A stretch of 64,000 bases of DNA from Bryum argenteum (taxonomy: Eukaryota > Streptophyta > Bryopsida > Bryales > Bryaceae). The number at the start of each line of letters is the position of its first letter. The stretch's first letter is position 1. Below, piece after piece: positions 4,908-48,664 of the stretch. Location: assembly GCA_037043015.1 (NCBI GenBank), contig CM073329.1, positions 10,680,648 to 10,744,647 on the forward strand. Direction: 5' to 3'. The notes under the pieces were generated by a model. That model saw nothing but the letters and a program-made list of their open reading frames with translations. It was not told the DNA's origin and made no database searches. Both the position numbers and the translations under genes were made by a program.

Positions 4908-6128
4908 AGCTACACTTCCGGACGGACAGATCCCTGCACCAAATGGAATGGAATAAGTCGGGCGATCGTGAGCTGTGGTTGATCAGGGTTGCTAGAGGAG
5001 CAACAAATGAGCCTCCCTGCCCGTCACGCTGGTCGCCCTTCGCAACAACGATGCGCAAAGGAATGCCAAAAAGCAGAGCAGAGCCGCGGCATCGGGCCAC
5101 GAGGCGGCCAACGGGGTCGCCCAGGCGACGCCCAACGGCCAAGCTCGAGCTCCGACGAACGAACCAGGCATATACGTCCCACGATCATATTCTTCGTCCA
5201 CCTCCGGCCTTATTCTTGCCATGAGTACCATTGAATGCTTAGGGCCGCTTTACACGAGGGGCCAAGCCATTGATAGGGCCAATTTATGACCAAATTCTTC
5301 CTTTTGATTGGTCCAGTTCTTGAAATTGGCCCGAGGGGCTTTCCATGTGGGAGTCAAGGCCAATTTTGTGAAATTATACTATAATGGGTGTAGGACAAGT
5401 TATGACACGGCCTGCGCTTCAAAAATTTGAGAGATACAAGAATGGAAGGCCAATTCATGGCTTAGAGGCAGTTTCTTGATTTCAATACAAAATCATTATT
5501 TCACTAAAATATTTTAATGTGAACAGAGTAAAAGCATGGAATGTAGCTAATAATGGGAATAGGCCCCCATGGCCTTGTTTTTCCTTCTACAAATCGGCCC
5601 CAAGGGCTTTACACATGAGGAATTGGCCCATAATTTATTAATTGTTTATTGTGTTCTCCAAGTGGCCCCATGGGTGGTTAAGAGGGACAAGGATGGTTAA
5701 GAGTTAACTAAGATCATAAACTCTAATTTTATGGTTTTTATTTCACACAAGTATGACCTTAAGGTAAATTCCAACAGCTGCTTAGTTAGAAGTTTTTTCA
5801 TTCAATTAATTTTAATGATGGATCTTCAATAATGTTACCATTCGAAAAAAATTGAAATTATTTGTGGTCCTTGAGGTTCCCTTCATCCACCATGCATTTT
5901 CAACATTATTTGCAAGGTTGTATACCAATTTGAGTCTAGTTTTTGTCACAAGGAACCCGCTCAATCCAACATGTAAAATTCTATGACTTCAATTTTTAAT
6001 TTTGTATCCTTTGTAAAGTTTGTAGTTTTTTTTACCATTCCAAGGCTATTATTTGAGCCAAGAAAGTTTTTTTTGGTGATTTTTTTGTGGCTACAAGGGT
6101 GTGTTTGAGATGGAGAGGAACAACTTTA
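4908..6128. other. E2 upstream region, then a degenerate interspersed repeat
   Basis: 4908-5230 is GC-rich and is probably the E2 promoter and leader; its overlapping open frames resemble nothing I know. From 5230 the sequence becomes AT-rich. 5230-5700 holds loosely repeated phrases of the type GGCCCxAGGGGCTTTxCAxxTG. 5860-6128 is clearly related to 58850-59150 on the same strand, so it is a dispersed repeat. No gene seen. Confidence 0.6.
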
Positions 6129-6152
6129 ACGCGCAATTAAGCAATTATGCAC
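6129..6152 (+). repeat. Left terminal inverted repeat of the 11.3 kb element
   Basis: 24 bp matching the reverse complement of 17390-17413 except at the third base. The inner continuation includes AAGTGCACTT and ATGGCCAT, echoed at the right end. Confidence 0.75.
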
Positions 6153-6999
6153 CCGGCTATTTAAAAGTGCACTTGGGTACTACGATGGCCATTTCTTGCA
6201 AAAATGGAATTTTTTATTTTTAAACTTGATTTTTTCTGGAAAAAAAGGTGTTTTGCAAAGAATGTTGCGTATTGTCAGAAGTGGTAATATAAAAAGACTT
6301 CTAATGGCATTGTGAACATATTTTTGGTATAAATCCATGTGAATAATACAAATATTTTTGTCCAGGGATATTTGAAATGCTTAGTATATGCTACAAATTG
6401 TGTAGATTATAGTTAATATATTTTTGGTGAGAAAAAAATGACGCGAGCACCAAAACTGTTAATAAAAGTAGGCACCAAATTGTTCCAATGGACATTTAAT
6501 AAAAATATACTTCATATTGTACTTTGTATATATGTGGTAGAAAAGTATCTAAATACATGATTCTAAATGTATACCAAGTTATGTATATAATCGATAATAC
6601 AACTAAATTCAACCCATATGTTCATCGCAACAACACGTCCCGAAAATAATCCTTGCGCGATCTTGTACTATCTAGTACGTATATACACTTAGAAACACCA
6701 TGTGTACACAAAACACATGGACTACATACTAATATCTAATGCGGCTTGCAAGCGGTCATTGTCGATAGCTTGGGTTTGCATTGCGATATATTCTAATATG
6801 TGGGCCTTCGCAGATTGGATAATGCAAATGTTGCTTGGAACCCGTGACTCCAAAGACATTGCGGTTTCTCCCCGACTATGACTGCACATGATTCTTTTTC
6901 GGTTCGTCCGCCCGTGAAAAAAATACATGCCTCTTTCTCTATCCAATCGTGATTCTCCCCGGATGGCTCCCACAATGAATCCAAACAACAGATACCGTT

Positions 7000-9290
7000 G
7001 TAAAGAGGAACTCGGTCCGTCACCAACTCCCCTCGTATGATTGGCCAATACCAACAAACTTTCATCTTGATTTTATTCCGGCCTTTTCCGTCTTCAATCA
7101 CCTTCCCTAAATAAAATGGAACACCCCGTACTTCTCGCACGATCAACACCGAGGGCTACAAATTGTCCGAACGGATATCGGATTGAGGATCGATTGGGGA
7201 AAAGGATCGTCAAGACCTTCCGATACCGCTCTTTCTTGGTTCCATCAAAGATGTGATGCGAGCCGTTTTTTTGTGCCCTACGACCGCTTGGTTAGGTGGC
7301 CTCTCTCTTCGATGACCAAAGTATCCTCTAGCCTCGAATTTGGAAGCATCGCCACTATTTGGTCCACAATAGTAATCTCGTGGTTTGATTCATTTCGATC
7401 GTCAATAACATCTATTGATGCATCTACAATAGGTGATGTCTCTAATACCTCGAAGGCCAAAGTCAGAAAGAACTATGCTCGTTGCTACGATCTTTGCTTG
7501 GGAATTCGGCTAGGTATAGTTTCAAATGTTCTCGCCTCTCTTTTAGCTTCACCATTTTTCGGATGTTGGAATCTTTGAATGCACCTTTCTTTGTATGCAA
7601 TAAAGTCATCCAATGCCTTCAACTCCCTTTCATCACCGCAAACACCTTTTGCAAACGATGGTCGTTCTTCTTTATTTGGTAGCGATTGCAACGTCTTTGT
7701 CCCCGACTCAGTCCCCATTTATCCTTGCTATAATGTTTGTGTTGTCTTTCGAACCTTACCGACCCCCTCTCGATTGTCCATATAGAATCGCATGTGGTGC
7801 GGAAAGGTTATGCCAACCAAAGAGTCCCCCGTCGACAAGTGAGGGGTTATGAAGGACTTCCAATCCCACACATTTTCTAAGAGTCGGCGCTAACAAACGC
7901 CTCTGTTATGGATGTACCTTGTTCTATTAGACTAAGCATTTCCTTCAATGAGTCGATGTCCGACCTCTTCAACACATTAGATATACAACTAAAGCGTTGG
8001 TCGATATCTTCGTGTGTATGGCCCACTATAAGGAAAAAGAGAGCTCCACCTCTTGAAAAAACCCAATCCCACCAATGAAACACATAGAGCAAACATGTAA
8101 ATGTTTTTATTCTCTCTGTGCAGATTATCCGCTTGGATACGTAATGTTGGAGGCAAAAAAAGCGTTTTCTCCTCTTCACATCTCCTATCACGCGCAACAA
8201 TGCGCTCACCACCTGGTTGCTATCATGTTTTGTGGTGCGCGCCGAACTAACCACACATCGCAAAGATAAACCAATCCCATATACGAGGCTCCACACAAAT
8301 GGGTCTTCACAAACCGATACTCGATGTTCTTCACGGTTTGACGATTTCGGTACCATGGTAGTGTTTTGATCCACGCCATCAACAATGATGCACATGTACA
8401 ACTCCGGCCGATATAAGACGACCTCTTAAATATCCAATAATCTCTCCGTTCCTCCATCCGAATACGAAGATGCATCATAAACAACTCTTTTATTTTGATC
8501 CGAAGATCCGCATTCGTGGTTCCTCCATGGCACATTTATATTCCCAAAGCAGGTGATAACACTTTGAAAACCTTGAGAATTGAGGTCGCGGACATGAGGA
8601 TACCGATGCGCCACATCCTCCGGAACGAGCTAATGAAATGGTTTCTCCGTTACAAACTCTCTTCACCTCCTCGTTCACGTAATTGAATATATCGACTTCC
8701 GAGTATTCGTGGGCGAGGAGAATAAGAGGCACCACCGTTGTCATCCTTACGAAGAATTGAACGATGAGGTTGAGGGACAACCAGCCTTCGTCCACAAATG
8801 ATTTAAATGAGGCCTCCGCCACGACATTCTAGTCTCTCCCAAAGCGGGTTTGAAAAGGTCATTCTAGTGAATCGCCGCCACTCTTCCATATATTAAACAC
8901 TCCTTCTTGATTGTTTAAACCGTCTTTGTGAATATCCAATGCCAGAAAGATAACAAGCATTACAAACTTGTTTGCCATCTAACTTTTGCGACAAATTTAT
9001 CTCGTTGGAAACGTTTCGTCCGTGTATAAAAAAAAAGAAGATTTGTCTCATCCAAGATTTGAATTGCATAAGTAGAAGCCCACGCATTATAACGCATGTC
9101 CAATAGATACCGTTCTTGAATGTCTCTCAAACAATTTTGTTTGCATCCTCCTCCTCGCCCTATTGCCCAGACGCTTAGAAGAGATACCTTCGTAGATATA
9201 CCTTCTCTAGAAGATGTCTCCTGGAATCTCTCTTCTTCTATTTTGCATAGAATATGGACGTCGGGCCGCTCGACATTTAATAAGCCCATC
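7000..9290 (-). pseudogene. DUF7869-type transposase-like gene, frameshifted
   Basis: Read on the minus strand, the fragments fall in the order known for DUF7869-family proteins. A Cys-rich start comes first (CKQNCLRDIQERYLLDMRYN, about 9130), then KQVCNACYLSGIGYSQRRFK (about 8960-8900), then ELFMMHLRIRMEERRDYW (about 8490-8430). Next is VDGVDQNTT (about 8380), and finally VGHTHEDIDQRFS (about 8025-7990). The two acidic motifs DGxDQ and GHTHEDID are the family's hallmark and look like part of a DDE-style active site, though that role is inference. The pieces lie in different frames with stops between them, so it is a pseudogene here. Downstream sequence to about 7000 may be the C-terminal part but I cannot align it. 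It is the best candidate for the enzyme that moved the 11.3 kb element. Confidence 0.7.
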
Positions 9291-10879
9291 TACATGGGGC
9301 AAATCTCGGATGTTGGAAAAAGACTTTGAGAAAATGGAGAGTTCTCATCTACGGGGTTTGAAGCTTTATACTACTACGCCGAGACCTATCGGTGGATCCG
9401 GTGTGTTGAAGTTGTCATGGAAATCAAATTCTTGTGTCAACCTAAAATATTGGTGGCGTTTGAAACCCATTCAATACGCCCTCGCCATTTTGAATGGTGG
9501 GTTCCGTGGCTATCGCGACGTAGATAAGATTTGTGCCAACGGATGATCAATCCAACACACATTCAAGACGTTCTCCCACAATCTAGGTCCGTCAATGCAA
9601 TGCATCGTCTACCCTAGTGATGCGATCGCCACCCGGACGGGAATAACTTCGATCCATGCGATTGCGCGCCGATTTCAAATGTATACTCCCAGTTCTTGCG
9701 TTCGACAACTTCTCTTCTTTTTCGATAACAATTCAAATGTCCTTTCCAATTGAGATGAAAATGACGAGTAATACCATCTCCAGTCCCCGCCTCGCACGAG
9801 CCGTCAGATTAATCGCGCTCCCACCGAACCGTTCGGATTAATGACATCGCTTCGTATTGGGTGTTTTGATGTACTAAAGGGATTTGGAAATTGGAGTGTC
9901 CATTGTCGTTGTTGAACTAATAGGAACCTATACATTGCAAACATGTGAAAATATGTGTGTAAGAATAGAAAATATCATTCATTCAAACGAACATATGTTC
10001 AAGGACATAAAATTTTGCTTCTAAACATGATTGTTAATGTTGGTTACTAAGTTCAAAAAGATATTATATATAATTGTTAAGATTGTTTAAAGTTGTTAAA
10101 TTACTTAGGATTATCTTGGGTACTTTATTTATATATAAATTAACGGTTTATCTACCTCTCTGGACATGTGTTGGATAAAATAATACAATGCTAAGTTTTG
10201 ATTACATGGAAATAACAATAATCATGTTTGATACCTTGTCCAAGACTATGTTACACCTTAGGAATTGGATTGTTTGCGTTTCATAATACATTGCTAAAAA
10301 TCGTTGATTGAAATAAAAAAAGACAATGACAACATGAAATGGCGTCAAATTACTTTTTGTACCTATGGCAATTTCCATTATAAATCCTACATCATGCTTT
10401 GAGCGTGCATAAAATCACAAAGATGGTGGTATTGTTTAGGATAAAGGAATAATTATTGCAATGACAATGATTATAGAAAGTTACAACTTACTTATAGGTT
10501 CAATTAAATTTGCAAGAAAAAATAATATTTGCAATATTCATTGTATGATCTATTATCATAGCGATGGATAGAATTATCATGTGTTCTTGTATGTATGCAA
10601 TATATTATTGTTTGGAAAATATGGTAATTTTAAACTTTACCTTTAACTTCTACTACATTATAAAAATGAAAGTTGAATAAAACTTGCAACCAATGATTCA
10701 ATTGCACTCAAGTAGGAACAAAGTTTTATAAAGCAATACAAAGCAGCGCCTGCACCTCGGCCGCAGGTCAGCCCGCCAGCAAGGCAGGGGTCAGGGGGTG
10801 TCCGGGCGAACACCTCTACCACCTCCTTTTTTTTTTTTCATCTGACCTGTCCGCTTCTGATCTTCTGGCACACTTGCCG

Positions 10880-11255
10880 TTTCTTCCTCCGCTCTTGCTC
10901 GTGTTTTTGAAGGTCGTTGTTGCCGTTACTTCCTCCTCCGCTCTTGCTCGTGTTTCTGCAGGTTGCTATTGCCGTTTCTTCCTCCTCCGCTCTTGCTCCT
11001 GTTTTTGAAGGTCTTTGTTGCTGTTTCTTCCTCCTCCGCTCTTGCTCGTGTTTCTGCAGGTTGCTATTGCCGTTTCTTCCTCCTCCGCTCTTGCTCCTGT
11101 TTTTGAAGGTCTTTGTTGCTGTTTCTTCCTCCTCCGCTCTTGCTCGTGTTTCTGCAGGTTGCTATTGCCTTTTCTTCCTCCTCCGCTCTTGCTCGTGTTT
11201 CTGCAGGTTGCTATTGCCTTTTCTTCCTCCTCCGCTCTTGCTCGTGTTTCTCAAG
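10880..11255 (+). repeat. 49-bp minisatellite with alternating A/B units (98-bp higher-order period)
   Basis: About seven and a half units of 49 bp begin with TTCTTCCTCCTCCGCTCTTG. Two variants alternate. One has GCTCGTGTTTCTGCAGGTTG; the other has GCTCCTGTTTTTGAAGGTC. The order is roughly B', A, B, A, B, A, A, A-partial, so the true period is partly 98 bp. Because 49 is not a multiple of 3, each unit shifts frame, and the plus strand is open through the repeat in more than one frame. Those open frames are not evidence of a gene. Confidence 0.9.
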
Positions 11256-11741
11256 AACGCTGCTAGAACGATCAGAGAGCACTAGGAGAGTTTCGTGACT
11301 TGTTGCAAACAAAAATATTTTTGCCGATTCTCCTTATCGCTGCTTTCTTGCATCAATCGAATCATTGCTTAGTACCGAATCATTCGCCGCTATTTGTACC
11401 AGGATCGCCTTTGTTGTTGCTATCGAATCGATGCTTGCTACTTATCGATCTTGTTGCTATTCCTCATTGCTATCACCTGGTATTGTTGCTCATTGTTGCG
11501 GCGTGCATTTTGGGTTCTTGTTCGCTCTCTTATGCAGTGACGCTACTATTCAAGTTCGCCCCACTTTGTACTCGATATGTTAAAATCTTCGTCTTCCTCC
11601 CTTCATCCTCTTTGTGGTCTTTGTTGCGGACCACATGCAGCCCGCCACCAAAGCCACCAAAATCCTAATCTTAAATCCTTAAACCTAAAAAAAATTTAAG
11701 AATCTTTAAAAATAGAAATAATAAAAAATTATGAGAGATTG

Positions 11742-11765
11742 CAAGGGGTGTGCGCACACCCCTTG
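11742..11765. repeat. Perfect 24-bp palindrome
   Basis: CAAGGGGTGTGC followed directly by its reverse complement GCACACCCCTTG, with no spacer. It closes the GC-rich block that begins at 10740. Confidence 0.9.
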
Positions 11766-12879
11766 AAACAATCAACCAAGTGAACTCCAATAAACATCCC
11801 ATTTACTATATTAAAGCCATTTCAAACGTCTGATACCCGCCCATGAGGGATACCCGCCCATATTGATACCCGTCATACATTATAATTACTTGCTTAAGAA
11901 CAAGAAAAATGAAAACATTTAGCAACACATGATAGTAAAAATATTAATGTAGATATTGTAGAACTAACATCTTTCACATACAGTCGTTTGAGACTAAAGA
12001 ATATTACCTTCTTTTACGATTCCAAATTTCTAAAATTGTCTTCACTGTAAAAAGAGCATTTAGCCCCAGTCAAACATGTTCGCACATTTTGGTCAAGGGA
12101 GAGAAAAAAAACACTATTTCCTACATAAAACCTATAGATCTTCATTTTTTTAATTTTTTTTTTCTAGCGAAAAATTTATGTGATAAATAAATTCTTATCA
12201 ATCATTTTGGATTTTCATTCTAAAGCATGTTGAGTTCACAAAAGAATAAAATGTGGCATAAAAGTTTGTCAAATAATTTCAATCTCGATCCTTTGCATAT
12301 TTGTTTTGAATATGCTACACACCTTTTCCATGTCTAGAAATTGGTTTTAAGGTAACCAACATGATCATGCCTATCATGATTTTAAAGAAGTTAGACCTTG
12401 TATAGTGAATTTTTTTTAAGCCAAGTGAAATTAAAGTGTGCTAGACCACTCAATACAATTAAACACATGAATTATTCTTATGATTTCAAATGCTATAATA
12501 TTTTAATCCTTCCGATGCATAGTAGCCTAAAAAATTTGGTGGCTTTATATCAATGTTTATTTTAAGATTCTAGGATTAGAAGTCTTAAATTTCACTCTAA
12601 AACTAGATTTTAAAGCCACTTTTCGATAGTGACAAATTTGAAGTGTTTCTTGAAGAATAATGGCCTAGGCTTTTCGGGGCTAAAGAGTCGTCAACCATAA
12701 AACATCTTCCACATGAAGTCATATTAGAATCAAAACAAACAAAATGGCCTATGTTAGTCTATATTCACATGAACCATGTGGTCGGATGGTGAATTTTGGT
12801 ATAAGTTATCAATATTTTATTGAATAGAAATCAAAACAATTGTCAAATAGACTCTAAATTACACCATATTAACCATTAT

Positions 12880-15800
12880 GATATTGTGTTCCAATGATGA
12901 TCAGGTTGCCATACGCCGCAACGTCGGAACCAACCGCAAAATCGACAAGACATGGGAGAAGCGGATGGTGGATTGTAGAAGAGGACCCTCAAAGCCTTAT
13001 TTGTGGATGACGCACCAACCTTTTAAAATAAGGGACCGTGACGTCGGCGTTAAGCAAGCGTTTTGGCGAGATTCAAGCAATTACTACCCGCCCATCGCCC
13101 CGACATGATATATGTGATGTGTGTCCTCAGATGTCGATGAAGCAATGCAGAAGACTTCTCCGTCGAGACGAGCCTTCTTCTTGCATCCATTCCGTAATCC
13201 TTGCTTGCAAGTTTAAGGTCCGTGAAATTTCTCAATACCTTGCAGAAATTTTGGTCAATATCGCTCCTGCATGCGTACAATGGCGCGGGAGAGCATATGT
13301 CACATTGTCTAGGGTTATCACAGGAGGATGTGGCACGAGCAATGGTTCTTATGGATGCCCATATTAAGACGAAGCATTACTAGAGGCGGATCCAACACAT
13401 GCAACATCACAAGGTCCTTGGTTGAACAGGAAGAGACGGATCCAATTCATCGTAGTTATGTTATGGAGGTGAGTTGGATTACTACCACTTCAAAGAGATT
13501 GCACAACTGTGCCCGTCCCAGCCGTATCGCGACCATCGAGCGCTTTGTAGGAAGTGTTCCTCTATCTGGAAGAGGACGTCCTTCAAAGCGGCCACGACGT
13601 GAGAGAGGCGACATAGCATCTGGTTCGGGTGGACGATCGTCGAATGTGGCTACAAGTGGTGCGAGGTCAACTGGACGAGGATCGAGGCGCGTGGTAGGGG
13701 TAGTGGGTCTACAACCATGAGGTTTCCATTTCAAGATGGAGCATCTAACTTATGTGTCGAGTTCTTCACTGAATGTATCGGCGGTGGAGGACGAGTTTGA
13801 AATATCGGACCGGGACGAAGAGGATTGAGTCGGAACCGAGGATGGCGTTGGAGGCCTCAACGTCAAGTAAGTTCCTAGCACCGATACCATTTGAAGGAGA
13901 AATCGCGAAAGGATCACTATGGGGGACATTGTATTCGAGGTGAAGATCGACAAGATTATCCAGTGGAGAGTCCTTTGACAAACCATCGGTACTCTCTGCA
14001 AAGAGAGTTAGAGAGGTTTATGACTTTATGAGACATCAGGAGAACAAGACTTGTGTGAAGCAAGTTGGTTCTTCGTCCGTCAAGACATTGTGGATGTCAC
14101 TCACCGGCGATGGTGTGGTTCGGCAAGAAGAGGTGGCATTCCCCCCGAAAAGAGTTCAACGAGTTCCAACGCATATTTGATACACACGGATTAGTGTCTA
14201 TTCACGGTACAACACATTCTCGATTGTGTTGGCTTGGAGGAGAGGATCATTTGGGAGCGGTGGATGGACAACACATTGTTGCGGACTGCGATTTTGCGAA
14301 GGAAGAGGTTGCCCAACACAAACTCTCACGCTGAGTTTATTAACATCTTTGAAATGCGGGAGGCAACATTTGTCGTATACGATGATCCCGCATTGTACCT
14401 AGCGAAGTCCGCGGGTCAACAAGAAAGAATGGAATAGGACAAAATATTCCACCATGGATGAGGACTTGAGAAAGCTACGCGAGATTTGGAAGTTGTATGG
14501 GAAGCTCGATAGCTTGGTTCGTGCAGACGATGACGCGGGGCTAAAGCTCGTGTGTGTGCGGCTAATCACGCGGTCTAGAAGAACCTTGTTGAGGGCAACA
14601 AAGGTATAACAATCAAGAGGTTGGAAAGCGGATCGTGACTTGACCATTCACGCGTGGAATCGCCGGCGCGAGTGTTACGAAGCTATCCTTCAAGTGTGCG
14701 AGGACTACGAAGATGGCCATCTCTTTATAGCGAGGAAGAAGAGGAGAAGAAGTGGAAGGCGTTTGCAGACAAGAACAACCTAGATCCTCTTGTGGATGTC
14801 ACGGGGCGTGAAGCGAATGACCATGCATTGGTTGAGGCGGCTGAATGTGGTTCCACGATCCGCTTATCTACGGCTAGTCAAGTCTTGTGCGGCTAAGCCA
14901 GGTGGGGAGGACACCGTGAGACGCCGACAATCATATTACTTTCACGCCATCGAGGATGCGTTCAGGGATACCCGTACTATTGCAGTGCGATTGACCGGAT
15001 CATGAGACAAGAAGCGGTCGCTAATATCACTCGTTGGTTAATGGTGTCCAACAAAGTCGCTCACCTAATTCCATGGAAGAGTTCTTCCACATATCTCAGA
15101 CGGAAGTATTTTTTAAAGCAAAAGCAAATTGATGCATTTGGCAAGGACTTGGCCAAAGACACAAAAAGCCGCATGGGCTAAACCTACACGAGAGAAGGTG
15201 CCCAAGTTGGCGGGCATATAAGTGAACTTATTCCCACCTCCATCAAGGTTCACTATTATGACATTGCAACAAAAACACATGGAGAAGTGGAAGCATCGGC
15301 AGATGAGGTGGTGCCACTACCGTCACATGGAAGTGGGTGTTATAAGTTCGAACGCCAACTCGCATCAAGACACCGGATCATCTTATGGTTCGAAGCAGGA
15401 AGGATTATTTCATCCACGATGTCCGTGATTATTGACACAATCATACTTATGGGTTGTTGATTGTCGACGTGGTGGGGAAGACGTGGAGACGGTCGCAGGA
15501 AGAAGAGCGATTCACCAAAGTTATTGCACAATTGTCGGCGTGGATGACGGGCGTTGAACGATGGAACAAGATTCTCTTGCTATTCACGGCCATGTTTGCT
15601 AATGCCGAGTTGTTCGCGAAGCTCAAACTTCCCGGAGGATGGCACTCAACGATGGATGGATGTTGGGCATTTGGCGCAAACTCGGTTGATCGGTATGCCC
15701 TCAACTTTACTGGGGTGGTCGATTCTGACAAGCGGTGGAACCATTTGGAGGTGTTGTTGTTTATATGCAACACCTGTTGATACTTTCCCCCCAGAATTAT

Positions 15801-16570
15801 GTTTTCGGGACCATCCACTACCACTTGTATTTCACGATCAATGGAGTGAGACACATCAACCGTCGGAGGGTGATAGACTCGAGCGATCGCCATCCGAGCT
15901 CTCTAGACTGGTGGATGCGTATTTGCCAATTGGTTGGGGTTTGGCTGCGTATAACATTACAACGGCCATTCCGACAATCCTTCATGGAGGTTTCCATGGA
16001 TCGGAGATCATTGTCATTGACGATAGCCTAGAAAGGCTAAACTTCTTGTATACAAAGTTGTTTCTCAACTTCCAAGGACAATTTCAGATCCCTGAGATGA
16101 CGGGTGCAACAAGGAGCACTAGCGTTGGCATTTCCGAGGGCGAAGATCCGATGAACATAGGTTCAGAGGAAGGCGGTAGTGACGAGGACGAGCTTGGAGA
16201 TGAAGCGGATACTTCTATTCCAGCACCATATACATTGGCAAATGTACGACAGCCGCGTGAGTATGACACAGATGTACCCTCGCCTGATCATAATTCATGT
16301 GACGACGGACTTTATTCGTCTGTGGAACCTAATGGCTTTGGGGAAGGATCAGAGATACCGGAGGTGGTTCTAGATACTCCAATTCAAACGAGACCAATAG
16401 TGCCATCCATTCCACAATCTACAGAATCAGCGGAGACCATAGCATTCAATGAGGCCTTCGCACCAATGATGACATTTAGAGACGGCTTCTACTATAACAC
16501 CGATGGCATAAGGTACACTCGCCACGGTGAGCCGGCGATTCACGCGTTCGGAGAGAGTCTGCGTCCATGA
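12880..16570 (+). pseudogene. Decayed plus-strand coding-like region of the 11.3 kb element, unidentified
   Basis: The composition is more even and GC-richer than the AT-rich flanks, and many moderate open frames overlap on the plus strand, as in a broken gene. The longest (15554-16570, 338 codons) ends in an acidic, Ser/Pro-rich tail (GSDEDELGDEADTS). A second frame at 15454-15780 contains a Trp-rich segment (DSDKRWNHLEVLL) that distantly recalls the hAT dimerisation region. I could not confirm a zinc finger or a catalytic motif. It could be the element's second protein or a nested DNA transposon. Confidence 0.4.
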
Positions 16571-17389
16571 TCTTCAAGATTCTATTGATCCCCAATGTCA
16601 TTTGGCGGCGATGGATCGTATGGTACATGAGGCCTATGAAAGCGACCGTGAGTAGGACAATGGAGGAGGATGATTAGAGCATCAGAGATTTATAAGTAGC
16701 AAGTCAATATGATGTTTAGGTGACATGTTAGGTTAGATTGATATGTTTGAGTAAAGTATGAGATGTTTGGTTATAGTATTATGCATGTTATATTATAGTA
16801 TTTACTATCAGTTTCTAAAGTACGTTTATGAATTTTATGTATGGATTTTCATATAATATAGAGCGAGATGCTACATATTTTCTCGTTGAATAGCACATGT
16901 TGGCCTTTTATCTCTTATAAAGTATGTTTGTTGTATAAATGCCAAAAATAGTATATAAATGTCATATAGCAATGTACAACGTAGAGGTTCGTAATCAAAA
17001 TTGTATTGAATCTAAAAAGAAACACTATAGGAAGTTCAAGGACAAAATTGAATCTTTGAAATTCTTTAAATTTCAATTTTTGCACTCCAAGACGTGACGT
17101 TGTCCTTCATATTGATCCATTGGGATTTGTATTCCAAAAAATTATATGGTGCACAAAATAATAAAATAGATGTTGGCAATATTTGAATATAATAATTTGG
17201 TAGTATTTACAAAGCAATAAAACATGATTTAGCAACAAATTTGTTATTAAAAAAATACTATTTCTCATTAGTTTAAGTTTAGTGCCTCCACATTTAAATT
17301 TTTTTTTTTTGTGTGGAATTTTTGTTGTTTTTTTTCATTTTGGAGGAAAATGTTGTTGTTTTGACATGCCATTGAGTGCACTTGGCAAA

Positions 17390-17413
17390 GTGCATAATTG
17401 CTTAATTGCGTGT
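17390..17413 (-). repeat. Right terminal inverted repeat of the 11.3 kb element
   Basis: Inverted partner of 6129-6152, 23 of 24 bases identical when reverse complemented. Just inside lies AGTGCACTTGGCAAAG, partly matching the inner part of the left end. Confidence 0.75.
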
Positions 17414-18023
17414 TCTTTGTAGGTGAGATATTTTTTAATATTGCAATAGGTTTGTTAGTAATGTTTTCACTATAAAGTGAAAACTCATTCAAAAACAATG
17501 TTTCTACACTAAAAGTACATGGGACACATAGGGGTTAAAGTGTCATATCTTAGCACCAAATAACAATATTTTTGAGGTGTTTGATGCCATCAAGTTACCT
17601 TACAAATTCACTAAAGATTTGAGTGGTATAAAAATAATTGACCATTGAATGAATAACCAATTTACTTATTTTCAAGTGGTATTTCTCTTATTCAAAGTTA
17701 CTTTCAAAAAACCTTCTTCAGGTAATGTACATGGTGAGTTAGCACTTATGGTAGCTTGTTGGTTTTAAAATGGTATTCCAAAATTGGCACACTAGAATGA
17801 ACTCTCAAGGAAGTACATAAAAGCTCTAAAGGCTATACTTGGTATGAACATTCCACACCATACCAATTTAGGAAAATCTACAAGTCAAAAATATGAAATT
17901 TATAACGAAACTTCATAAGGGTCAAAACGATGATTCCAATAGATCCAAACTTCTACACTCATATTGCTTGCATAGTTAAAACTTCACAACTCTTTGAAAC
18001 TTGTGCAATATTAGTCAAATTTA
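17414..18023. other. AT-rich spacer, right flank of the element
   Basis: 17414-17490 resembles 59118-59215 (TTGCAATA, then TCACT-AAAGTGAAAA type sequence), so it belongs to the same dispersed repeat as the left flank. Nothing gene-like is seen in the rest. Confidence 0.6.
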
Positions 18024-41113: not shown

Positions 41114-41668
41114 TCAATGCAAGCAGGATTCCTGCGAAGTTTCTTCTCCTACTTGAGCCTTTGGATTTTCCAGCTGAACTAACCCTAATTGCTCTCTCAA
41201 TCTCTCAAAGGCTGTTCTCCCGAGAGCTTTAGTCAGAATGTCAGCTAACTGCTTACTTGTTGGTGTGAATTCCAGGTCAATTTCTTTTGAGAGGATTTTC
41301 TCCCTGACAAAATGATGCTTGATTTCGATGTGCTTAGTTCTACCGTGAAATACAGGATTACGAGCTAAGTTTAAGCTACCTTGGTTATCTCCATGAATGA
41401 TCGTTGGAGCATGAGTGTTAATTGCATCGATTTCACTTAGCAATCGCCGCAACCAAACGGCTTCTTTCGTTCCTTCAGTTAGTGCCATATACTCCGATTC
41501 TGTGGAGGATAACGCTACAGTTGGTTGTTTCCGGCTATTCCAGGTGATGGGAGTACTTCCCAAGAAGAAAACGTACCCTGTGGTGGATTTGCGATCGTGA
41601 GCATCGGCTGCCCAATCGGCGTCGGTGAACCCTCGTAAGTCACTTCCCTCCCCACGCCGATACAACAT
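41114..41668 (-). mobile_element. Copia RNase H region (fossil)
   Basis: Recognised by LRGFTDADWAADAHDRKSTT, ALSSTESEYMALTEGTKEA and KHIEIKHHFVREK, typical of the copia RNase H domain. Confidence 0.92.
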
Positions 41669-41737
41669 CGCAAAGTTGATCGTTCCCTTGAGGTACCGAT
41701 ATAGGTGCTTAACGGCCTGAGCGTGAGGTTCTTGGGG

Positions 41738-43345
41738 TCACTGCATGAAGCGGCTGACGACGCTTACAGCGTAGGCAATGTCGATACGAGTGTGAGTTAA
41801 AAATATTAACTTGCCGACCATTCGCTGGTAGCGAGTAGCGTCAGCAAGCGGAGCATCCATCTCCGGTACAAGCTTCAGCTTCTCAAGCATGGGCGTTGGA
41901 ACAGGTTTGCACTGGTCCAGACCAAATTCAGTAAGCATCTCCAGTATGTACTTTCGTTGAGTAATGAGTATACCTTTAGGTTGAAACAGGAATTCGATCC
42001 CCAAGGAGTATGAGAGGAGACCCAAGTCTGACATCTCGAAGGCCTGCTGTATGTCGTTGCGAATAAAGGCAATGTGCTCAGTGTCGTCTCCCGTGAGATA
42101 GACGTCATCGACGTACAGTAAGAGTAAGGTGAGCTTGCCTCCTGCTTCGTGGTAGTAAAGGTTGTAGTCGGCTTGTGATTTCATGAGCCCTTGTCCCTGT
42201 AGATAGCTATCAACTTTAGTATACCAAGCCCGAGGGGCCTGCTTCAAGCCATAGAGGGCTTTCCGAAGTTTGCATGCGTAGCCACGATGAGCAGAGGAGT
42301 CAAAACCAGGCGGGAGACTCACAAATATGTCTTCGTCGATAACACCGTTCAAGAATGCTGTTTTGACGTCAAGGTGGAATATTTTCCAGCCGTGATGTGC
42401 AGCAAGTGCCACAACGCTGCGAAGTGTATTCCACTTAACGACAGGCGCGAAGGTCTCTGTATAATCCTGCCCCGGTTTTTGCTGAAAACCTTTTGCGACT
42501 AGCCTAGCCTTGAGTTTTGCAACTGTTCCATCTGCATGGGTTTTAACTCGATAAACCCATTTCGTAGCGATAGGTTTCCTGTTGGATGGCAGCGGAGCAA
42601 TGTCCCATGTTCGATTCTTGTATATTGAAGTCAATTCGTCCTCCATGGCTGTTCTCCATCCCGGGTGCTGGAGAGCTTCATCGGTACAGGTGGGAAGCTC
42701 GGACAGTGGACAGGTCTCTGCTACATGCAGATAGAAATCGTTGAGCCTGGCGGGAATCCTTCGAGTTCGACTGCTACGTGTGATAGGCGGTAGCGCGTCA
42801 GGTGGCGAATGTGAGTCACCTTCGGAGAGCTGAGGAGTTGAGATGACCGGCTGTCTCCTCTGATATGTATGAGGTGGATGTTGGGCTCGGTAAGAAGCAT
42901 CAGGTTCCATCGGGAGCTCAACTGAGAAGTCGGTGATGGGAGCCTGAGCTGGCAAGTTCGATGAGGTGTCATGAGAACTGGAGTTCTCAGTACCAGTTGA
43001 ATGGTTAGAAATTAGCTGAATAACCTCCGGACTTGGATGAGTGAACTGATCCATGGGTGGTTGCATGACAGGAACCGGTGGAGACGGAGCCAGGGAAGCA
43101 TCGTCATGTGGCACTCCAACAGCAACTTCGTCAAAGAGAGACCAGTCATGCAGGACCGGTGGTTTGATGTTGGCATCGTTAACTTGTGCACAAGGGAAGT
43201 TGCTCTCGTCAAATCTAACATCTTTGGAGATCAAGATTTTTCTCCCCTTTCGATCATAATTTCTGAAACCCCTGGAAGTTGAGTCGTAGCCCACGAATAT
43301 GCATTCATGGGAGCGAGGAGCCCACTTGTTTCGTGTTTGTCGCAA
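41738..43345 (-). mobile_element. Copia reverse transcriptase region (fossil)
   Basis: Recognised by WKIFHLDVKTAFLNGVIDED, YGLKQAPRAWYTKV and LLLLYVDDVYLTG. The upstream part carries the integrase C-terminal end (ECIFVGYDSTSRGFR) and a Pro/Ser-rich linker. Confidence 0.95.
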
Positions 43346-46300
43346 CCCTTGCTAGCTCACCTTAGCTTACACCAACTTTTTCCCAACTCTAGCAAGTGTC
43401 ACGAGCGCTAACTCTGCACATCCCCCACATGCACAAAGTTAGCTCTCCATACCAACCACCAAGCTCACCGCTTGGTTATCAATCCCTCCTACTCATGCAA
43501 CCGGGACTCAACCCCTTCGTAGGTAGCCAATGGTTAGGTGCGGACTTCCACTTATGTCCAAGGCCCAACTTGGTGGCACTCCCATACCACGCGGCCTAAC
43601 CGCACTTGGTGGTGTCTCCTCACCACCGCCCATGACCACCATGGTGACCCCAAGGCCACCAAGTAATCACAACGCCGGCGGTGAGACACCACCCCACATC
43701 GGTAGCACTCATGGTCCTCATTTTGCCTATATGAGTCCCCCGTGGTGAAGCCCCAACACTAGCTCCCCACCGGGACTCACCTTGTCCTTATGAGCCACCG
43801 TGGTGAAGCCCCAACACTAGCTCCACCCACCGTGCCTCATTTTGCACTTTGAGTCCCCATGGTGGAGCCCCAACACTAGCTCCACCCATTGGGACTCACC
43901 TTGGCTTGGGAGTCCCCATGGTGAGGCCCCAACACTAGCCACACCACTCGGGACTCCCACCTTGGTCACCACCAAGGCACCATGGGAGTGGGGAGGAGAC
44001 CAGCCCTCCCCATAGTATACTCTGTGGGATTCGGCAGCCCCTGGTCCTAGGTGAAGGGCTGGACCCTCACACCTCTTAGTTTTGGAAGACCACCCAATCT
44101 CCCAATGCCTTAGCCGCTGGAAGGCCCCGGGAGACTTCCCGAACCTTCCAGGGCTCGTATCTACCTCTTCCCGCATCCAAACGCGACGAGCGACCACTCT
44201 ATCGACATCTACTCGTCAAGTAGATGCCGATAGACACCTTACTTGCCTCATTCCGACAAGTATTGAGGGAGTTATGCCCCTCTGAAGATTCGGGAGTCCC
44301 GGGCCAGCTTCCCAGTCCAGCACTGTCCCTGGACAGCACTCCCTTTAGTCCCACAATCTTCCAACTCCCATAACTTTTAGCTCACACCTCCAAATGAGGT
44401 GCTCCTTAGCATCCCGGAATCGTGGCAACATGAGCTTCCATAATCTCATGTCCATTCCCTCGTGGCTCCTAGTCTCCGTGGGTGAGAGGCGTCTCCAACG
44501 CCCGGGGTCCTCTCCCACACTAGGCCCACTTAGGTTCCCTTCACCTTGGCACCCCAAGGCCCGGGCGTCACTCCGGTGTCCCCCTTGGGCCCTTGGTGTT
44601 GCGGTCACTCCTCAAGGAGAGGTGCGCGACACTCACCCCCACCTAATGGAGTCGATGCCCTCATCGACTATACTTGTAGTCGGTCACACCAACTCTTGGG
44701 TTGCCATCCCCATTGGTGCAGCATTGTGTTTCACCAGGGCGCGACCCCCACAATGCACTCTCAAACTTTGGCAAAGTCTCAAAGGTGTCGTCACTAGGTG
44801 GTCTGTTTAGTACCCTGGACCTCTTCCAAGGCAACTAAATTACTCTAGACCCACCTACTTTGAGACCCTCTTGGATTGCCCTTACCTTGGCTCTCCAAGT
44901 TAGGCTCCACTAGCCTAACACTTCTTCCTTGACTACTAGGTGGACCTCAATGCTTCCACCAAGTTGTCTTGGTTGCAAACCCAAGATGGCTTTTACACCA
45001 CGACTCGATCGCACGGGGTAATGCCAAGTTCCGCCCAACTCGGATCCCACTATCTCTTTCAAGGCATGGGTTCATGACTCCCATGCACTAGCTTGCACTA
45101 GTTTGTGGGAGTGGCGCTTTTATGAGCACGCGCCATTACCTTGTCCCCGCTTAGGACAAGCCCAAGGCCAAGGGACTTCATGGTTTTATCCACTCTTTCT
45201 CCTAGCCTTGGTCCCCATTACTCGGCCTTCCCAACTCGGTTTCACATCTCTATTCCCCTCTTCCACCAACTTAGCACAAGTACAAGACTAGGACTCCATC
45301 TCATACTCTTCTCTTTTGCACACACCAAAGCCAAACTTTATTGCCAAATCCAAAGAACAAGTACAAGTGTTGTGGATCTACGCCCAAGCTACAAGTCATC
45401 CTCCCCACTACGGAGGTTGATGTCCTCATCAATGCCTACGTTGCTTCTTGTTGGAGCTCCTATTCTTCTCAAAGTTCTCCACCACCTCCTTAGCATTCAC
45501 CATGTCCTTTGCCGCCACCCACGTTGCTTCTTTCTCGTGGTATCTCGCCACTTCACAAGGTATTCCTTGCTCTTGTTTTTGAGGTTCCTACTCTTGAGGA
45601 TGGCCTCTACCTCATATTCCAAATGTTGTCCAACCAACTCGGTGGTGGCCGAATCACTTGCTTGCAATCCCGCCACAAGGTATCCTCCTTGAATGGCTTT
45701 AACAATGAAACATGGAATGTTGGATGCACTTTGATCTCGGGTGGTAGCTCCAACTTATACACATCTTTGAACACCCGTTCCACAATGGGAAACGGACCCG
45801 CAAACTTGGACATGAACTTTGGAGTGAGGCCTTCGGGCATGGTGAAGTTCTTCACATTCAACAACACCTTTTGTCCCACCTCATACTCCACTTCACGTCT
45901 TCCGGCATTGACTTGCTTCTCATAGCGCCTTCTTGCCTTCTCCAACAACAACTTGGTTTTTTCCAACATATGTTCCCGCTTCTTGGCCAAGTCTTCACCA
46001 TCTTGGTTGAACTCTGGTGTTGAATGTGCCCCCTCGAGAGCTAAGTCAGCAGGTTGGAGTGGCTCCACTCCATAGGCCACTTTGAAAGGTGACTCCTTAG
46101 TCGCCGAGTGTGGCCGCATTGTAATCGAACTCCGCCAACCCCACATAGTCTACCCAATCACGTTGGTCCGCACTCACAAAGTTCCTCAAGTATTGGTTCA
46201 AGACCCCATTCACCCTTTCAGTTTGCCCGTCTGTTTGGGGATGAAAGGCAATGCTAAATGTCAACTTGGTTCCCACCTTCCTAAAGAAGTGTCTCCAAAA

Positions 46301-46552
46301 TGCACTTGTGAACTTTGGGTCTCGATCTGACACAATCACTCTTGGCAACCCGTGATGCTTCCACCATGCATCGAGAAAGATCTTGGCGGTCTCAAGCGCA
46401 GTTGCAGTTCCTCTAGTTGGCACCATATGAGCCAACTTGCTAAACCGATCCACCATCACTAAGATGGCATCATACCCTTGCGACTCGGGAAGGCTTGTGA
46501 TGAAGTCCATATGGTAAGCTGCACGCGAATGCCATACTCCTAGCTTTTTCAA
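43346..46552 (-). mobile_element. Ty3/gypsy LTR retrotransposon fragment nested in the copia element (fossil)
   Basis: Same strand as its host element. Parts seen: integrase core (MDFITSLPESQGYDAILVMV, FHPQTDGQTERVNGVLNQYL) at about 46552-46097; the integrase tail with KVLLNVKNF and KVHPTFHVSLLKPF at about 46146-45607; then about 2.2 kb of noncoding sequence, probably 3' leader and terminal repeat. Gag, protease and reverse transcriptase are not seen, and no second terminal repeat was found, so it is a partial, broken copy. Exact ends are uncertain. Confidence 0.85.
43720..43980 (-). repeat. Tandem repeat (about 65 bp) in the gypsy 3' region
   Basis: Four degenerate units centred on GGTGAAGCCCCAACACTAGC with GGGACTCACCTT between them. 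Confidence 0.8.
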
Positions 46553-47078
46553 GTAGAGTCCTGTTCTTCCTTTCAGCGATGCTGTTCTGATGAGGAGTGT
46601 GGGCCTGCGTCAATTGTCTAACAATCCGAGCTTCATCACAAAATTTAATGAATGCGTTGGATGTGAACTCGCCTCCCCTATCTGATCTGATAGTCTTGAG
46701 CTTATGATTTCCGTGGAGCTCTATCATAGCTTTGAAATGTTGGAATTTCGACAGGGTCTCAGATTTAAGCTTCAGGAAGTACAGCCATGTAAAGCGACTA
46801 AAGTCGTCCGTGATGGTGAGGATGTACCTCGACCCGGACAGGGACTTTGTAGACGACGGTCCACAAATGTCGGTATGCACAAGTTCGAGAGGACTCCTGG
46901 TACGTCGTTCCTCTTCCTTCGGTGAGCTTTTCGACTTGTCAGTAACTGGGACCATTTTTCTCCCAGGCTTGGGATTTCGGCACTGTTTTCCTGTGTGACA
47001 TGCTATGCAGAAAGGAAGCTTGGAGATCAGTCGGGGTAATCCAAGTACCTTGTGATGTGCTTGCATGAAGATCAGCAC
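46470..47078 (-). mobile_element. Copia integrase region (fossil)
   Basis: Recognised by LSGSRYILTITDDFSRFTWL, TIRSDRGGEFTSNAF and HTPHQNSIAERKNRTLLEKA. The last part of this open stretch already belongs to the nested gypsy fragment. Confidence 0.93.
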
Positions 47079-47174
47079 TTTGATACTGGCGTGGCCAAGC
47101 CGATTGTGCCAGAGTGCTGTGAGCTGCTCCTGGCCTGTAGGGATTTGTTCGTCTGTAGAACAGGTAAGTCCCTT

Positions 47175-48533
47175 CTAGCATGCGGTGGGGTCCGTTTCTA
47201 TTTCAGCACTATTTACCGTTGATTGAGGCGGCCTGAATTTGTACAGACCGTTTCCACGATCTCTTACTCCTTTTATAACGATGTTTTGAGAATCTGGTGT
47301 GGGAACGTTTCTAAGAATCCAGAAATAGTCTGAATCGAACAAGACTTTCAGCTTTTCTTTCCCATCTGCTATGGACCCCACTGACAATAGATTCTTGGTG
47401 ATGCCAGGTACGTAGAGAACTTTGTCTATCTTTATTCCTCCGGAGCTGGTAGAAACGTCAGCTGTACCTCTAGCTTCTACTTTTAGTGACTCTCCACCTG
47501 CTGTACTGATCTTAGACTTACAGCCTGTTTCTAAATCACGGAGTAGTGCCTTGCTTCCTGTGACGTGTTTGGAAGCACCACTGTCAAGAAACCAAACATC
47601 GTTTTGACTGCTATAGCTCGCTAAGTTTAGCTCGGTCAGGTTAACAGCTAGATCGGGATCGAGATCGCCGATCTCTTCGTCATCACTACTTTCAAAATTG
47701 TCGATTAAGTTGTCTACGAGGTTAATCGACTGCTTCTCCAGTCTGCTAGCTTTTCGAAGTTTCAACTCAGCCGCTAACTGGGGACAGTTCCTCATCCACT
47801 GATCGGTAGCACCACAATAGTGGCATTCGCTGCTGACTTTCTTCACTTTTGTTCGTCCTTCTTCGCCTCCAGTGTTCGGTCTTCGGCCGGTAGGCTTCTT
47901 TTTCTGTGCCGTTCTTGCAAGTAGTGCTTCATGACTTCGCCCGGTGCCTTTGATTTCTCTACGGATGTCATCCTGCATCAGGATAACTGTGAGCTCGGAA
48001 ATGGAAGGCAGAGTCGGCCGGTACATCAGAGTATTGACGAGCCCCTCGAAAGACTCTGGGAGAGCCATGAGGACGTGCTCGACGACTTCTGCGTCCGTAA
48101 CAGGCTGCCCAATACATGCGAACTCGTTCAACAGCTCCTTTAGATGCTGTAGAAACTCCGTCATTGGAGTGCCCTCCTCCATCTTCAAGTTGGTAAGCTT
48201 CCTTCGCAAGAGTAGCTTCCTCGAGTTGGTACTGTTCGCATAGAGGTCTTTGAGTACCTGCCAGCATTTGTCCGGTTCAGTGATGTTAGCAATGTAGGGT
48301 ATCACGTTGTCCTTCACGGACAGTGCAATCATCGTTAATGCCTTGTTCTTCTGAAGTTGCAACGCATCGATCTCAGCTTGCGTGGTTGGCGCTACGGTGC
48401 CCGCAGGTGGATCAGCTAACTTCCACACATCTTCTCTGCTCAACATGTTCTTCATCTTGAAACTCCAGACGCTGTAATTAGCGTTGCCATCGAGCTTAGA
48501 CGAATCTCCCATAAGTGAGTCTCTGGAAGCCAT
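47175..48533 (-). mobile_element. Copia gag and protease-like region (fossil)
   Basis: N-terminal gag (NYSVWSFKMKNMLSREDVWK), a Lys/Arg-rich stretch with a Cys-rich knuckle-like motif (SECHYCGATDQWMRNCP), then WFLDSGASKHVTG of the aspartic protease and the start of the integrase zinc-finger region. Confidence 0.92.
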
Positions 48534-48664
48534 ACTGTGAAGCTAGTTTCTATCTCTCTACTATGATCTGCTTCTGCTACTCTGAATCTCTCAGCTCGTT
48601 TCCTACAGGAGTACCGACTACTCAACGGGAGCTCCAAGAAGGACTTAACAGCTGACTACGCCTC

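Follow-up and report, generated by a model that had tools for sequence, protein, structure and literature searches.

The 64,000-bp stretch of Bryum argenteum DNA analysed here (assembly GCA_037043015.1, contig CM073329.1, positions 10,680,648 to 10,744,647 of the forward strand; its full length is called the window) carries an 11,287-bp transposon with terminal inverted repeats (TIRs) at positions 6128-17414. Two genes lie on it in divergent orientation, one coding for a protein with the DUF7869 domain (Pfam PF25273) and the other designated open reading frame B (ORF-B). The features of the element are as follows.

6124..6127, no strand: left target site duplication (TSD) CTTT, its letters identical to 17415-17418
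6128..6152, + strand: left TIR AACGCGCAATTAAGCAATTATGCAC, from inverted-arm comparison; homology with other copies begins here
6734..9688, - strand: DUF7869 gene (putative DDE/D transposase), frameshifted in the window copy; tblastn with the intact protein L068 of 1125 amino acids (aa), in several frames; Pfam PF25273 E=4.3e-16
7916..8245, - strand: portion of the DUF7869 domain open in a single frame, GHTHEDID included; Pfam match over 61-170 of ORF 7877-8425 -
10881..11251, no strand: 49-bp tandem repeat, 7.6 copies, between both genes; repeat detection
12963..16528, + strand: ORF-B, the second gene, in divergent orientation to the DUF7869 gene and frameshifted in the window copy; tblastn with the intact 1402-aa L095; P0001 match at C9:10693498-10695150 +
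17390..17414, - strand: right TIR, inverted copy 24/25, from inverted-arm comparison; homology with other copies ends here
17415..17418, no strand: right TSD CTTT, from the sequence; joined-flank self matches overlap at exactly these 4 bases

The arms at 6128-6152 and 17390-17414 are complementary at 24 of 25 positions and form 25-bp TIRs. A previous reading of the sequence alone had reported a 24-bp inverted pair at 6129-17413, and this pair was recovered with the actual ends one base further out on each side. The minus-strand gene with DGxDQ and GHTHEDID of the same sequence-only reading corresponds to ORF 7877-8425 (- strand), which has the motifs DGVDQ and GHTHEDID and the PF25273 match listed above. 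ORF-B was absent from that reading. The number of 49-bp repeats seems to differ between copies of the element, because blastn matches to other elements are fragmented and overlapping at 10881-11251.

The searched genome comprises 258.8 Mb in 25 contigs. For each end region, 40 copies were scored genome-wide, with 98-100% identity and a homology edge at or near the TIR edge. Left-end matches start at query positions 25-31 in 33 of 39 non-self cases (query 29 is window 6128), and the remaining six start at 19, 20, 20, 20, 34, and 34; right-end matches stop at window 17414-17422 in all 39 non-self cases. At a tolerance of two mismatches, the 21-bp TIR core was found 358 times (177 forward and 181 reverse), and the core read backwards as a control gave 0 + 0 matches. 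A chance inverted repeat was rejected on these control counts and on the TSDs. When neighbours less than 20 kb apart were taken as pairs among 100 listed sites of the 358, all 38 pairs were inverted and convergent. Their lengths are 10.6-11.9 kb in 22 cases, 3.0-4.7 kb in nine, and other values (6.5 to 18.2 kb) in seven; the three short copies examined are internally deleted and retain both ends and some of the interior. Paired ends elsewhere in the genome, which the sequence-only reading had asked for, were thereby found. The left termini read AACRC in 30 of 32 first-family elements and are altered in the other two. GYGTT was present at the right ends of 32/32 first-family elements, of 9/9 elements of a second family described below, and of 4/4 loci of a third, the L038 family (L038, L040, L041, and L043); the homology of L037 and L039 ends in sequence where L037 has no GYGTT reading. 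One TIR-bounded copy, C5:18034932-18046021 (L017 and L018), lacks a counterpart of window 8203-10742, roughly half the DUF7869 gene. It carries about 2.5 kb, possibly a captured or nested insert, for which no similarity to the window element is listed.

The TSDs were compared in 32 elements, namely 12 whole elements (the window one included) and 20 end pairs. The 4-bp flanks are identical in 29 of these and the 5-bp flanks in none. The element at C5:21304875-21317817 adds one imperfect case (TAAA / AAAA), so the tally becomes 29/33. Flanks compared between copies gave identical 4-mers in 8 of 992 comparisons. The A+T content of the duplicated sites is 84%, against 63% in the flanks, and TTAA accounts for one of the 29 perfect TSDs. 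In a search for empty sites, the two flanks of the window element were joined over one CTTT and 40 matches were scored. All 38 non-self matches span the junction with 76-80% identity, and the two self matches are the window's own halves, overlapping at exactly 4 bases. The window element therefore appears inserted in an older repeat, other copies of which are uninterrupted. The terminal inverted repeats, the TSD of constant length, and the paralogous empty sites are those of a class II TIR transposon; its transposon nature is shown by the inverted ends, the 4-bp TSDs, the dispersed and internally deleted copies, and the uninterrupted paralogous sites.

The genome search with the PF25273 profile gave 151 matches from 1810 first-look candidates, and the location counts use 150 listed places (150 of the 1810 candidates scored). 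Nine of the 38 TIR pairs enclose a listed DUF7869 match, where 0.22 would be expected at uniform density, and all nine matches lie 1.6-2.2 kb from one end and read toward it. The C5 pair at 21304875-21317817 shares the exact TIR core and encloses an intact 1125-aa DUF7869 frame, the protein of which is 73% identical to L019, the best frame of the window family. DUF7869 coding sequence, which the sequence-only reading expected inside paired-end copies, was thus found, and in the C5 pair the frame is intact. Each of the seven scanned proteins covering this region passed the PF25273 cut-off (window 7877-8425, L019, L068, L038, L049, L096, and L097), and DUF7869 was the only family at E<=1 in the Pfam scan of L068.

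The link between gene and TIRs, as claimed from the sequence, extends to a second family with different TIRs, the DUF7869 proteins of which are 39-57% identical to the first group, varying by the stretch compared. The TIR of this family, AACACWRTATTGAGGAAAACCGC, has 82 genome sites (control 0), and neighbours within 26 kb form 24 convergent pairs and three otherwise oriented. Of the 24 pairs, 11 enclose a listed DUF7869 match (0.17 expected), which lies 1.3-2.0 kb from the near end and is oriented toward that end; across both families, 20 of 20 enclosed matches read toward the near end. Perfect 4-bp TSDs were present in seven of nine second-family elements examined. The DUF7869 coding sequence thus has a fixed place inside the ends of two families with unlike TIRs. 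A distant DUF7869 clade (L096, L097, and L098, on C1, C3, and C4) is 25-27% identical to L068 and has the motifs HDKMDH ... Q(M/L)DN ... GHTH(D/E)DIDA. Contig C1 also carries many of the lower-scoring DUF7869 matches.

The search for ORF-B, in which 77 of 498 candidates were scored, yielded 107 matching pieces that form 64 places. A listed DUF7869 match lies within 14 kb of 26 of these places, with about one expected, and 38 are without one. Both genes are divergent in 24 of the 26 paired loci; in the two non-divergent loci, both on C3, the paired DUF7869 matches lie outside the TIR pair surrounding ORF-B. The C5 element has ORF-B as an intact 1402-aa frame. ORF-B gave no match above cut-off in Pfam and NCBIfam, and the PDB sequence search gave only weak unrelated matches. 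Its recurrence beside the DUF7869 gene suggests that ORF-B codes for an accessory protein. The ORF-B motif VDGQHVVAAC may have a ParB-like look, which none of the analyses supports.

The predicted catalytic domain of DUF7869 proteins was aligned in 29 sequences (alignment A2), in which D72, D154, and E193 correspond to D571, D653, and E692 of the 1125-aa protein. These residues are invariant or nearly so, with Y at D154 in L043 and D at E193 in L096 as exceptions; L044 is poorly aligned upstream of the domain. The model of this domain has a predicted local distance difference test score (pLDDT) of 77.6 and a predicted template modelling score (pTM) of 0.79. Along the chain it has three strands, a helix, a strand, a helix, a strand, and a helix. 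D72 lies on the first of the strands, D154 shortly past the fourth, and E193 where the last helix begins; a low-confidence stretch behind the first strand contains two further, short helices. RNase H-fold DDE enzymes show this order of strands and helices, with acidic residues at these positions. The DUF7869 domain is thus predicted to have RNase H topology with D571, D653, and E692 in DDE positions, which agrees with the fold and the Asp motifs at the active site anticipated by the sequence-only reading, with weak structural matches. The ratio of nonsynonymous to synonymous substitution rates (dN/dS) of DUF7869 was 0.05-0.32; nine of 12 comparisons gave numbers, two of them with dS >1.5, and three were saturated, including the sole ORF-B comparison. 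Purifying selection is therefore supported for DUF7869. A PDB sequence search with the DUF7869 profile gave one match, which is unrelated (E 0.066). Viral and genome contigs were searched for viral or prokaryotic relatives, and none of the 22 and 18 pattern-matching stretches, respectively, was confirmed.

The window element is very probably a copy of a large two-gene class II (TIR) DNA transposon, with the DUF7869 protein, by its predicted fold and its place in the element, as the putative transposase. In the mechanism proposed, this protein would bind the element ends (AACRC...), an RNase H-fold DDE/D active site (D571, D653, and E692 in the 1125-aa relative) would cut, and the element would be joined to AT-rich target DNA opened with a 4-bp stagger. 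The divergently transcribed ORF-B protein (1402 aa when intact) may serve as an accessory for transposition or its regulation, and the short copies of 3.0-4.7 kb would be moved in trans. DUF7869 is uncharacterised in databases, as the sequence-only reading had stated: the Pfam entry PF25273 gives only a domain of unknown function, and the present analysis links the domain to TIRs, a TSD, and a predicted DDE-like fold. Searches of a literature library found no paper mentioning DUF7869 or PF25273, none with four motif strings, and none for one combination of Sola2 and moss. A Pfam domain of unknown function would gain a probable role and an active site open to testing, together with defined ends, a TSD, and a partner gene, and DUF7869 "genes" in plant annotations could then be recognised as transposons. 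The C5 relative with both frames open makes a direct transposition assay possible.

Several results weigh against this explanation of the element. Of the 38 listed TIR pairs, nine of which are short forms, 29 enclose none of the 150 listed DUF7869 matches, and the window's own DUF7869 copy is not among the 150 listed of the 1810 candidates. The third family (L038) has five sites of one end only, on the gene side where assignable, and no perfect TSD was found in 4/33 first-family and 2/9 second-family elements. The domain model has pLDDT <50 at residues 79-94 and 156-160, which adjoin two of the three acidic residues, and the full-length model is poor (pLDDT 44.6). No Foldseek match in the PDB or viral library reached E<=0.001 (best 1.3e-3 and 1.9e-3), and TM-scores were low. 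The 50 listed PDB matches, none of which reaches E 0.001, have mostly Argonaute/PIWI titles, with two lipases; Argonaute/PIWI domains likewise have an RNase H fold. In the first 31 matches from the viral library, all with E >0.001, RNases H and two proteins called "transposase" occur beside others, some of them unnamed.

The classification of the element was compared with known superfamilies by printed description. Sola is among the recognised superfamilies (passages of PMC4455052 and PMC9587614), and for Sola2 the passages of PMC3627910 give TIRs of 12-13 or 21 bp, an AT-rich 4-bp TSD, and an 888-aa transposase. Compared in this way, Sola2 comes closest in TSD and TIR, and the element described here resembles it in its AT-rich 4-bp TSD, short TIRs, and large transposase. 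The element may well be a member of the Sola superfamily, probably Sola2-like, with DUF7869 as a part of the Sola transposase, a possibility that comes close to even. The 25-bp TIRs, the TSDs with 84% A+T, and transposase frames of up to 1125 aa agree with it, whereas an ORF-B-like second conserved gene and a size of 11-20 kb are unmentioned in the Sola2 passages of PMC3627910. The mechanism would be the same, the element would bring no novelty at the level of superfamilies, and this classification is compatible with a two-gene DUF7869 transposon. Tentatively, and with rather less than even confidence, DUF7869 could represent a eukaryotic DDE/D superfamily of its own, consisting of two-gene elements of 11-20 kb with AACRC...GYGTT ends, AT-rich 4-bp TSDs, and a required partner, the large and hitherto unrecognised ORF-B protein of about 1400 aa, transcribed divergently.

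Ginger, Kolobok, piggyBac, and the C/DxxH group each differ from the element in a tested feature. Ginger1 and Ginger2 are likewise TIR transposons with a 4-bp TSD and a DDE enzyme; the passages of PMC2836005 give TGTNR ends, CCGG/CCGT targets for Ginger1, and zinc-finger and integrase-like domains. They were rejected because 30 of 32 left ends are AACRC and not TGTNR, the targets are AT-rich, and L068 gave no integrase-core match. Kolobok and piggyBac share the 4-bp TSD and target TTAA (passages of PMC9587614), and both were rejected because TTAA is only one of 29 perfect TSDs. The C/DxxH group, as defined in passages of PMC9587614 and PMC10045372, was rejected as the tested feature failed by eye in alignment A2. 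Academ elements are described in passages of PMC10045372 with a helicase or nuclease partner and a TSD of 9-10 or 3-4 bp; by comparison with this description, the partner here is ORF-B, without a Pfam match above cut-off.

DUF7869 and ORF-B could also be passengers, with a transposase supplied in trans by another element with these TIRs. The internal deletions of the three examined copies and the frameshifts of the window copy would suit such passengers, but DUF7869 lies in the same place and reads the same way in two families whose TIRs are unlike, its predicted RNase H topology carries a DDE-like triad, and the proteins scanned gave no transposase domain besides it; this explanation is very unlikely. 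That the inverted ends are unrelated repeats enclosing a gene by coincidence is next to impossible, as no point in its favour was found and the 38 of 38 convergent listed neighbours, the TSDs, and the uninterrupted sites stand against it.

In the window copy of the transposon, both the DUF7869 gene and ORF-B are frameshifted, as seen in tblastn with intact relatives; another copy retains an 831-aa DUF7869 frame. The observed/expected ratio of CAG/CTG is 0.19 in the DUF7869 region (6700-9750) and 0.41 in the ORF-B region (12900-16650), and 0.85-1.20 in four window stretches outside the element. With the 831-aa copy as reference, the window differs at 55 of the 66 CWG sites, and three other copies differ at 47, 38, and 21 of them; CTG to CCG is the commonest change, and alteration of all trinucleotides in the window is 12.7%. 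Deletions are enriched at CTG/CAG in an alignment of eight copies over the left 4.7 kb. The pattern of CWG alteration is not mainly C-to-T deamination. Nanopore miscalls occur at methylated CHG sites, and the CWG pattern resembles them, so that the frameshifts in the window copy may partly be assembly errors (long-read miscalls at CAG/CTG, in a repeat not amenable to polishing). A real CWG-directed mutation process is the alternative, and CAG/CTG depletion to 0.50-0.75 in loci with long open frames counts against a purely technical cause.

Elsewhere in the window, coding frames of a long terminal repeat (LTR) retrotransposon are on the minus strand at 41114-48542, with an integrase core and GAG-pre-integrase at 46470-47174 and a Tf2-like SH3 fragment at 45607-46149. 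The frames are regarded as Copia-like because of the integrase core and GAG-pre-integrase. Other host genes code for SURNod19 and Methyltransf_29 domains and are plant-like.

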